Shown here: piece by piece, positions 478 through 40,198 of the stretch
Layout: each line of letters starts with the position of its first letter
How positions within the stretch are numbered: the first letter of the stretch is position 1
Source of the DNA: Clostridia bacterium
Lineage (GTDB): Bacteria > Bacillota > Clostridia > Monoglobales > Monoglobaceae
DNA length: 64,000 nt
Direction of reading: 5' to 3'
Assembly (NCBI GenBank): GCA_017622215.1
Contig: JAGARO010000010.1
Coordinates: forward strand, 1-64,000
Position numbers and translations under genes: made by a program
Notes under the pieces: generated by a model
The model's input: only the letters and a program-made list of their open reading frames with translations
What the model was told of the DNA's origin: nothing
The model's database searches: none

Positions 478-1224
478 ATGCCTGTAATTTCTGCTAAAAA
501 TATTAAGAAAAGCTTTGGTAAGCTTGAAGTTTTGAAAGACGTTTCAATGGAAATCAATGAGGGTGAGGTTGTTGCAATAATCGGCCCCTCGGGTTCAGGT
601 AAAAGTACCTTTCTCCGTTCCCTTATCCACCTTGAAACTGTTGACAAGGGCACAATTGTAATTGACGGGGACGAGGTTGTAAAAGACGGGGAATACATTA
701 ACAACGAAGTAACAAGAGAAGCCTACAAAAAGCTCGGTATGGTTTTCCAGAATTTTAATTTATTTCCTCACAAATCAGTTCTTGAAAATGTTATGCTTGC
801 GCCTGTCATGGTAAACGGTGAAAGCCCTGATACTGCAAAGGAAAATGCTATTGAAATTCTTGATTCAGTTGGACTTAAAGACAAGATTTCTGCCTATCCA
901 TATCAGTTATCAGGCGGTCAGCAACAGAGAGTTGCCATTGCTCGCGCCCTTGCAATGAATCCACACCTTATGCTCTTTGACGAGCCTACATCGGCTCTTG
1001 ACCCTGAGCTTACAGGTGAAATTCTTAAGGTTATCCGCGAGCTTGCAGAGAAGAAGATGACAATGGTTATCGTAACCCACGAAATTGAGTTTGCAAAGTA
1101 TGTTGCAGACAGAATAATCTTTATGGCTGACGGCTATATCGTAGAAGAGGGTAGCGCTGAGGATGTTATCGACAATCCTCAAAACGAAAGAACAAAAGCT
1201 TTTATAAGCGGTTTCAGAAGATAA
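478..1224 (+). CDS. amino-acid ABC transporter ATP-binding protein (GlnQ family)
   Basis: This 248-residue ATPase powers uptake through the permease encoded just upstream. Walker [10 protein letters not shown] is at about residues 36-44, the Q-loop [10 protein letters not shown] follows, then the signature LSGGQQQR, Walker B LMLFDEP with D-loop SALDPE, and the H-loop VTHE. The length is normal for the GlnQ/HisP family. The ATG at 478 follows an AGGAGG site. It is the last gene of its operon and is followed by a small hairpin array and a terminator. The substrate is probably a polar amino acid; which one is unknown. Confidence 0.95.
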
Positions 1225-1226
1225 AA

Positions 1227-1325
1227 TGCTTCGCAGTGTTATAAATTCCTGCGGAATTTGTGATATACCTTGAGGTGTGGTATTTTACTTCGTAAAGTGA
1301 TATGTTGCCTGTGGCAACGTGAAAA
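1227..1325. repeat. array of five short hairpins joined by GTGATATA-like linkers
   Basis: Five small inverted repeats stand in a row: TGC-TTC-GCA (1227-1235), AAATTCC-TGC-GGAATTT (1243-1259), CCT-TG-AGG (1268-1275), TTTAC-TTC-GTAAA (1284-1296) and GTTGCC-TGT-GGCAAC (1304-1318). The sequence after each one is nearly constant: GTGTTATA, GTGATATA, GTGGTAT, GTGATAT and GTGAAAAT. The arms differ from hairpin to hairpin but always pair, so the structure is kept while the sequence is not. It lies between two convergent genes. I recall similar interspersed elements in gut Clostridia but cannot name a family. Confidence 0.8.
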
Positions 1326-1334
1326 TAGGAATAT

Positions 1335-1366
1335 AAAAACCTCTCGAAAATTCGAGAGGTTTTTTG
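1335..1366. terminator. bidirectional terminator between glnQ-like gene and rny
   Basis: AACCTCTCGAA pairs with TTCGAGAGGTT across a 2-base loop, with A and T runs on both sides. It can serve both the transporter operon (+) and rny (-). Confidence 0.88.
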
Positions 1367-1369
1367 TGC

Positions 1370-2932
1370 TTATTTTGCGAAGTCAACAGCTCGGGATTCA
1401 CGGATTACATTAACCTTAATCTGTCCCGGATATTCCATTTCGTCTTCGATACGCTTAACGATATCCTTTGCGAGAATGATTGCATCATCGTCAGATACCT
1501 GTTCAGGCTTAACCATAATTCTGATTTCACGGCCTGCCTGAATAGCGTAGGATTTATCAACGCCGTTGAATGAATTTGCGATATCCTCAAGGTTTTCAAT
1601 TCTCTTGATATAAGACTCAAGGTTTTCGCGTCTTGCTGCAGGTCTTGCGGCTGAAATCGCGTCAGCAGCCTGAACTAAAACAGCGATAAGTGAGTTTGCT
1701 TCCACGTCGCCGTGGTGAGCCATAATAGCATTAACGATTTTTTCGTTTTCCTTATATTTCTTGGCAAGGTCAGCACCGATTGCAGCGTGGGAACCTTCTA
1801 CTTCGTGGTCGATAGCCTTTCCAATGTCGTGGAGAAGTCCTGCACGCTTAGCAGCTGCAACATCACCGCCCATTTCAGCAGCCATAAGGCCTGCAAGGTG
1901 GGCAACTTCTTTTGCATGAAGAAGTACGTTCTGGCCGTAGCTTGTTCTGTACTTAAGTCTTCCGAGAACCTTTACAAGGTCAGGATTTAAACCGTGTACA
2001 CCTGTTTCAAAGCAAGCCTGTTCGCCTTCCTGCTTGATAATCTGTTCAACTTCCTTTTTGGACTTTTCAACAGTTTCTTCAATTCTGCCAGGATGAATTC
2101 TGCCGTCTGTTACAAGCTTTTCAAGGGAACGTCTTGCGATTTCTCGTCTTACAGGGTCAAAGCTTGAAAGAATAACAGCTTCAGGAGTATCGTCTATGAT
2201 AAGGTCAACGCCTGTCATGGTTTCGATTGCCCTGATATTTCTACCCTCACGGCCGATAATTCTACCCTTCATTTCGTCGTTAGGAATTGCAACAACAGAA
2301 ACTGTGGTTTCGGCAACGTGGTCAGCGGCACAACGCTGAATTGCGCCTGAGATAATATTCTTAGCTCTTGTGTCGGCTTCTTCTTTAGCCTGTGTTTCAA
2401 TTGTTTTGATGAGGATTGCAGCCTGATGCTTTGTGTCCTCTTCAACTTTCTTAAGGAGAAGATTTTTGGCGTCTTCAACACTCATTGATGCAACTTTCTC
2501 AAGCTGGGAAAGTTCAAGGCGTTTAACCTGTTCAATCTCTTCCTGTGTTTCTTCGGCTTTTGCAATCTTCTGGGCAAGGACTTCTTCCTTTTCCTCAAGA
2601 TTGTGTGCCTTTTTGTCAATTGTATCTTCCTTTTGCTGGATACGATGCTCTTGTCTCTGGAGGTCGGAACGGCGTTCCTTTATTTCCTTTTCGAGCTCAG
2701 CTCTTTCCTTGTGTATTTCTTCTTTTGCTTCAAGCAACTTTTCTTTCTTAGCATTTTCGGCAGCTTTAGCTGCACTTTTTTTAGCGTCTTCTATAATTCT
2801 TTTAGATTCTTCTTCAGCACTGCCAATCTTAGCTTCAGCAGTATTTCGCCTATATGAATAGCCCCACTTAAATCCTCCGAAAGTTCCAACGAGGACAAGG
2901 ACTCCAAGTATCAAATATATAACAATTTCCAT
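1370..2932 (-). CDS. rny: ribonuclease Y
   Basis: RNase Y is the membrane-anchored endoribonuclease that starts mRNA decay in Firmicutes. The 520-residue product has an N-terminal membrane helix ([14 protein letters not shown]), a long charged coiled coil to about residue 190, a KH RNA-binding domain with the GREGRN loop, and an HD domain with the metal motif HDIGKA. The ATG at 2932 is chosen over the GTG at 2947 because the GTG overlaps the AGGAGG site. The length then equals the usual 520 residues. It is a single gene with its own promoter and terminator. Confidence 0.97.
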
Positions 2933-3027
2933 TATAGTAACGCACACCTCCTTTTAATATTTATTTCAAAACATTAAAAAGAAATACAAATGCAAGTAAA
3001 AATACAAATTATATGCTATCACTAGAT

Positions 3028-40074: not shown

Positions 40075-40107
40075 AAAATCCTCGTTCGTAAGAACGGGGA
40101 TTTTTAC
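40075..40107 (+). terminator. terminator of the tRNA cluster
   Basis: AAAATCCTCGTTC and GAACGGGGATTTTT pair around GTAA with one mismatch, then end in T-rich sequence. Confidence 0.85.
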
Positions 40108-40182
40108 TTATCACCTATTCACTCTTCACTTTTCACTAAAAGATTTCGTCGATTTTTGGAAAGTAATAAGTAATAGTGAATA
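40108..40182. repeat. MITE-like element with TTCAC 7-base tandem units
   Basis: TATTCAC-TCTTCAC-TTTTCAC (40116-40136) are three 7-base units. About 25 bases further on, AAAGTAATAAGTAATAGTGAA (40160-40180) reads as a partial inverted complement of the left end. The sequence holds no gene. Together with 40183-40316, which carries a hairpin and a promoter, this is the longest part without a CDS in this stretch (about 240 bases). Confidence 0.45.
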
Positions 40183-40198
40183 TGGAAGAAGTTAAGGT

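Follow-up and report, generated by a model that had tools for sequence, protein, structure and literature searches.

The window analysed here, a stretch of 64 kb, carries near its start an array of five units on the + strand (positions 1227-1326), each of which, as defined by script, is a small hairpin followed by a linker. The array begins just behind the stop codon (1222-1224) of an ORF at 478..1224 (+), which by its sequence motifs encodes an ABC transporter ATP-binding protein of the amino-acid type (ABC ATPase), and ends before a terminator-type palindrome that is perfect over 14 bp and has A/T tracts (1335..1364). This terminator is bidirectional and common to both of the convergent genes, the second of which (1370..2947, -) is presumably the RNase Y gene, rny, and is present in 35 of 38 family genomes; the placement between convergent genes given in the initial annotation is correct. 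The first unit is a weak hairpin of 3 bp only, found by script (TGCTTCGCA, TGC-TTC-GCA, 1227..1235), followed by the linker GTGTTAT (1236..1242). Hairpin H1 (AAATTCC-TGC-GGAATTT, 7 bp with a TGC loop, 1243..1259) is followed by GTGATAT (1260..1266), H2 (ACCT-TG-AGGT, 1267..1276) by GTGGTAT (1277..1283), H3 (TTTAC-TTC-GTAAA, 5 bp with a TTC loop, 1284..1296) by a second GTGATAT (1297..1303), and H4 (GTTGCC-TGT-GGCAAC, 6 bp with a TGT loop, 1304..1318) by the last linker, GTGAAAAT (1319..1326), all on the + strand.

The five small hairpins that had been placed at 1227-1325 are thus recovered at those coordinates, with five units within 100 nt. The linker had been described as a constant GTGATATA; two of the five are exactly GTGATAT, and the other three depart from it by one or two bases or by one added base. 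No open frame is seen within the array in the ORF list, so coding sequence is rejected, and since the constant parts are just 7-8 nt, a CRISPR array, with constant direct repeats of ~23-47 nt, is rejected as well; on both points we agree with the initial annotation. That palindromes in AT-rich intergenic DNA came together here by chance has next to no probability, and we regard it as refuted. The weak first unit, with its 3 bp, would suit such a reading, but when the 64 kb was shuffled 200 times with dinucleotides preserved, the best cluster had one unit (186 times) or two (14 times) and never more, against the five in 100 nt observed, and homologous arrays are present elsewhere. The fold energy z for positions 1225-1334 is -3.6. 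The window shows no enrichment of GTGATAT as such (7 occurrences versus 5.8 expected), whereas a genome-wide search for two spaced linkers (GTGATAT-N6..30-GTGATAT) gave 8 matches versus 0 for the reversed control. The initial annotation would have been refuted by a lack of other copies in this or related genomes; there are six more loci in the source genome, and relatives in genomes of the same class, in keeping with its mention of similar strings in gut Clostridia.

A permissive scan of positions 1100-1500 matched the Rfam family RF01706 (Gut-1) at 1234..1308 (+) with 49.4 bits and an E value of 6e-9, the array covering the full model (1-77) of three consecutive hairpins with UGAAAU-type linkers. 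The gathering score for Gut-1 is 50 bits, which the array misses by 0.6 bits and which none of the 10 matches in its own genome reaches, and Gut-1 was not listed in the default Rfam scan of the window. Because it lies below the curated score, we do not file the window array as Gut-1, to which it is plainly related. The 10 matches in the source genome are those at E≤1; eight are below 1e-4, and they represent seven loci, the window and the six others. At E≤1, 4 of 14 control genomes also match, and at E 1e-4 none of the 14 in each set does. With the latter threshold, Gut-1 is found in 27 of 118 related genomes, 14 of them above the cut-off, and in the class sample it occurs in 60 of 391, of which 38 exceed the cut-off.

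The entry for Gut-1 in a 2010 survey gives it as a probable non-coding RNA, from the human gut only (Weinberg et al. 2010; PMC2864571), and one reading is that the array is what was then proposed, a structured host non-coding RNA or 3'-UTR element acting in trans or protecting mRNA ends. The listing itself, the position of the window array between convergent genes, where it falls in a 3' UTR, and arms that in effect covary all speak for this. However, the mirrored anatomy of fuller copies, which could be read on either strand, the location of many copies behind a terminator, a copy number that varies, and copies that are absent or different at orthologous sites in a congener (see below) do not agree with it, and we think it unlikely.

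The six other loci in the source genome are fuller than the window array, with hairpins separated by GTGATAT, a centre, and then reversed hairpins with ATATCAC linkers. Full copies consist of a palindromic terminator, about four variable hairpins with a fixed heptamer, a centre, and roughly three or four further hairpins whose linkers are the reverse complement of the heptamer; some add a promoter-like stretch and one ORF, which encodes a PF05635 four-helix-bundle protein, and the arrays are retained in copies that lack the ORF. In relatives the heptamer comes in several flavours (GTGAAAT, ATGAAAT, AGCTAAAT, ATGAATT, ATGATAT and GTGATGT; the flavour names are our own), and whatever the flavour, the two halves of each element agree by reverse complement. 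At one locus (L063, positions 1080-2090, G009:C9) four elements of three flavours (GTGAAAT/ATGAAAT, AGCTAAAT and ATGAATT) stand in tandem, the last being followed by a PF05635 ORF. We also note a mirrored ATGATGT/ACATCAT array in a genome that has a GTGATAT-type array nearby (L047, G018:C1), and, at L034, L036, L041, L064 and L109, a conserved tail of approximately GCATCTAAAYCRTTCGGCTCTTCCA after the mirrored half or the ORF, ending in CA or CCA ahead of the next terminator. Window hairpin H1 matches the position of AAATTCC/GGAATT in the GCGATAT-linker element of L109.

The claim that the arms vary and yet pair is borne out across the family: pairing between the two ends reaches 4 bp or more in 128 of the 244 distinct inter-linker segments, whereas 500 trials with re-dealt 3' arms averaged 17 such segments and never exceeded 28, and the segments have 51 different outer arms. 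Triloops are TNC in 51 of 78 cases and closed by C-G in 73 of 78, which gives the units a polarity and indicates a genuine reversal in the mirrored halves. The arms contain 33 single mismatches, too few to decide the strand, of which 6 are G.T and 15 A.C; an excess of G.T, as the host RNA reading would favour in the Rfam orientation, is not seen, and there is no sign of RNA selection in that orientation, DNA or RNA of the opposite strand fitting equally well. The initial annotation had offered selection on structure or a mechanism that copies inverted arms as the source of the pairing, and compensatory selection on one folded strand would account for it as well as inverted-arm copying would. 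The start of the element, comprising the first linker and the 5' arm of H1, is also complementary to the centre ~85 nt further on, in 50 of 68 elements (found by pattern, a few of them doubtful) versus 32 of 340 swapped pairs. Because this closing stem engages the H1 5' arm, it and H1 would be mutually exclusive.

In the window, the putative closing stem has its 5' strand, TTATAAATTCCT, at 1239..1250 (+), overlapping the H1 5' arm, and its 3' strand, AGGAATATAA, at 1327..1336 (+), the two being 83% complementary. The mirrored half expected after position 1336 is absent from the sequence there; since both strands of the closing stem are kept and the sequence then stops, the window copy is a left half. 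Neither a CCA nor a terminator start is present on it, and no PF05635 ORF adjoins it in the ORF list. With the mirrored half and the CCA-terminator start lost, this copy is probably inert.

The protein encoded at C1:98961 in the source genome, beside the GTGATAT array of the element at ~C1:98.8k, matches PF05635 (23S_rRNA_IVP) and TIGR02436, a four helix bundle protein, and has a relative in PDB 2rld (E 5e-28). PF05635 is found in 42 of the 118 related genomes, but in 23 of the 27 with Gut-1 versus 19 of the 91 others (p 1.9e-9), and 10 of its 74 matches there lie within 500 bp of Gut-1, where 0.15 would be expected. The class sample behaves similarly, with PF05635 in 106 of 391 genomes, 46 of the 60 with Gut-1 versus 60 of the 331 others (p 1.5e-18), a separate test on new genomes assuming 304 of them, and with at least 13 further Gut-1/PF05635 pairs; in these 13, chosen by eye among the matches listed, PF05635 lies downstream 12 times and shares the strand 12 times. 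Gut-1 genomes with no PF05635 match number 4 of 27 relatives and 14 of 60 in the class, and some of these assemblies are incomplete. At G014:C21, the PF05635 ORF lies between the left and the mirrored half. By an automatic rule, the heptamer is present in both orientations upstream of 37 of 58 distinct PF05635 ORFs, a set whose loci, like those of the linker and protein tree, were partly chosen for nearby Gut-1.

Linker flavour follows the protein closely. On a tree of PF05635 proteins (ORFs of <95 or >145 residues dropped, reducing 58 to 55), flavour changes 9 times for 9 states over 36 rows, using automatic labels only and with GTGGTAT counted as GTGATAT, whereas the minimum in 300 shuffles is 20; genome labels, five of them set by hand, change 33 times. 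The linker follows the tree and the genome labels do not: protein and array travel together across bacterial families. Physical linkage by itself would produce such agreement, which is no proof of the binding of the heptamer by PF05635 that we propose. The same agreement, and arrays located directly upstream of the promoter-like region of the ORF, could be invoked for arrays that are an operator of the PF05635 gene bound by its own product, the solo copies being relics or decoys and the protein a regulator or defence factor that moves nothing. This leaves unexplained the placement behind tRNA CCA ends and the possession of terminators, as well as the tandem stacks with different linkers (L063) and the many solo copies per genome, and we hold it to be quite improbable.

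Inverted flanking arrays may be a broader property of PF05635 genes, although the evidence is suggestive only: they occur at 9 of 36 loci (score 26), compared with 10 of 278 when flanks were mismatched and 3 of 94 around control genes, in a test that skipped 17 of 53 loci in which the motif or its position was missing. We note that PF05635 genes of other lineages (L083, L084, L092, L096, L101, L102 and L189) have inverted plain repeats of 7-8 nt, of the AGGAATTAGGAATG type and with no hairpins; such hairpin-less flanking arrays are perhaps the ancestral form. Among the elements read, none showed a nuclease, recombinase or polymerase.

Many of the elements begin directly behind a tRNA or tmRNA gene. 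For 78 array starts with a palindromic terminator, collected with a loose pattern that admits some unrelated terminators, a tRNA or tmRNA gene is directly upstream in 37, and CCA occurs in the last bases before the terminator in 53; several of the remaining starts follow the CCA-like tail of another element. The terminator moves with the element, as the same one is found behind tRNA-Glu and behind a tail in G009 (L075 and L104) and behind tRNA-Cys in G135 (L150). At L012 (1112-1457) an element directly follows the terminator of a tmRNA gene, and L037 is a second tmRNA case. The window itself has a second ORF-less element, behind tRNA-Cys (40075..40191, +), with its own terminator hairpin and inverted heptamer arrays but no interleaved hairpins; in the region extending to 40255 there is a stretch with GTCATCCAAG, which resembles the tails of other elements.

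Comparison with a congener (G001) reveals turnover at such sites. Downstream of tRNA-Arg the congener has a different element and a different terminator, the end of sigF carries a terminator of its own but lacks an element, and at the antiporter gene there is no element. Its tRNA-Cys is followed, in an alignment, by the same heptamer arrays as at window positions 40075-40191 and then by an intact PF05635 ORF, and heptamers of this tRNA-Cys-element type also lie near the second PF05635 gene of the source genome (C12:2932). The comparison of orthologous sites proposed at the outset thus succeeds for other element sites, which differ between the congeners, and not for the window array, whose own site is unreadable in G001: the rny gene there is 99% identical, yet its neighbours differ, and gene order is not kept. 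A search of genome contigs with the ABC ATPase, which did not extend to near genomes, returned relatives of ≤60% identity. No clean pair of empty and filled sites with a target duplication was found at the sites compared. G001 contigs end at or near element sites at L312, L313, L314 and L316, and element repeats may for that reason be under-counted in draft genomes.

Short palindromes beside a fixed short motif, in inverted pairs, are also reminiscent of repeats of the REP/BIME type, which would be mobilised by a Y1 (RAYT or IS200/IS605) transposase. REP palindromes are conserved in sequence, unlike the arms of these elements, and PF01797 has no match in the source genome (G000), being present in 15 of 27 Gut-1 genomes (a by-eye count) versus 43 of 91 others. 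The Y1 transposase, absent here and showing no association with the arrays, is as a partner largely refuted for this genome, in support of the earlier statement that the array is no REP pair, and we regard REP-type movement as very improbable. A phage link is similarly not indicated, as a hairpin of ≥4 bp was present in 0 of 81 viral matches to GTGAAAT-N9..20-GTGAAAT among the 80 loci listed.

The most satisfactory explanation, which we consider likely, is that the window array represents the left half of an ORF-less, non-autonomous and decayed copy of a dispersed mobile element whose sole gene encodes PF05635. The elements are dispersed, have a mirrored anatomy, are associated with PF05635, lie behind CCA ends and turn over between congeners, and their standing as elements is well supported; how they move is inferred. 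Counting against this explanation are the ORF, mirrored half, CCA or terminator start and Gut-1 score that the window copy lacks, the Gut-1 genomes with no PF05635 match, the elements that show no nuclease, recombinase or polymerase, and comparisons in which no movement was observed. The initial annotation missed the Gut-1 match, the status of the array as half an element, and the ties to PF05635 and to tRNA 3' ends. In a plausible scheme, a PF05635 ring would bind the heptamer, and the hairpins and closing stem would fold one strand, as single-stranded DNA or RNA, so that it forms a compact substrate. In this scheme, ORF-less copies could behave like MITEs and depend for their movement on a PF05635 protein supplied in trans from elsewhere in the genome (C1:98961, for example), which would also need a host nuclease or polymerase. 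The insertion reaction may be guided by CCA, and insertion behind CCA with a terminator of its own would leave the tRNA gene intact. More tentatively, Gut-1/PF05635 elements could form a separate mobile class, in which an Avd-like four-helix ring recognises a lineage-specific heptamer in both halves, the DNA or its RNA folds by means of the variable hairpins and a closing stem, and each new copy is placed exactly after a 3' end in CCA, be it of a tRNA, a tmRNA or the tail of an earlier copy, perhaps by end-primed synthesis with a borrowed polymerase; this is possible, though doubtful.

Gut-1 and the IVS/S23p elements are known separately, and what is new here is the joining of both, with the possibility of a distinct class. 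In a limited search, mostly at the level of listings, we found no literature that connects Gut-1 or hairpin arrays with PF05635, and RF01706 was named in only one of the papers searched. Each partner gains a testable counterpart from the connection, with the heptamer as a candidate binding site; natural linker variants that go with particular protein clades, ORF-less copies that could serve as substrates, and the CCA end as a defined target provide further testable handles. There is also a caution, in that a curated RNA family can belong to a mobile DNA element. The 23S rRNA IVP is mentioned in a figure legend on CRISPR-linked genes (PMC10910872), and our guess would be that hairpin or heptamer arrays beside PF05635 genes might be mistaken for CRISPR by automatic callers.

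Among known systems, the 23S rRNA IVS with an S23p/IVP ORF in Coxiella and Leptospira are similar in being selfish-looking, in having PF05635 as the sole gene and in having complementary terminal sequences. A passage of PMC4990558 describes IVS as sitting inside rRNA helices and being cut from the RNA by RNase III, and calls the role of the four-helix S23p/IVP protein unknown. Gut-1/PF05635 elements, in contrast, lie behind tRNA or tmRNA genes or between genes and have mirrored hairpin arrays; the window array, between the ABC ATPase gene and rny, is not inside a 23S rRNA gene, and no rRNA match is present in the window. Diversity-generating retroelements offer a second likeness through their Avd protein, which a passage of PMC10053308 calls homologous to PF05635, but in the elements read here no reverse transcriptase, template or variable repeat was seen. 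MITEs and REP-BIME repeats are likewise short, ORF-less, multi-copy and inverted in structure, whereas these elements have no Y1 association, no demonstrated target duplication and arms that are not conserved. There is also a resemblance to Gut-1 RNA itself (RF01706), which has three variable-arm hairpins with GUGAAAU-type linkers and whose model positions 1-77 the window matches. The Rfam model is, however, a single three-hairpin stretch on one strand, whereas the Gut-1 stretch here is one part of a mirrored element to which a terminator, alternative linkers and a closing stem also belong, and in which full copies carry a gene as well.
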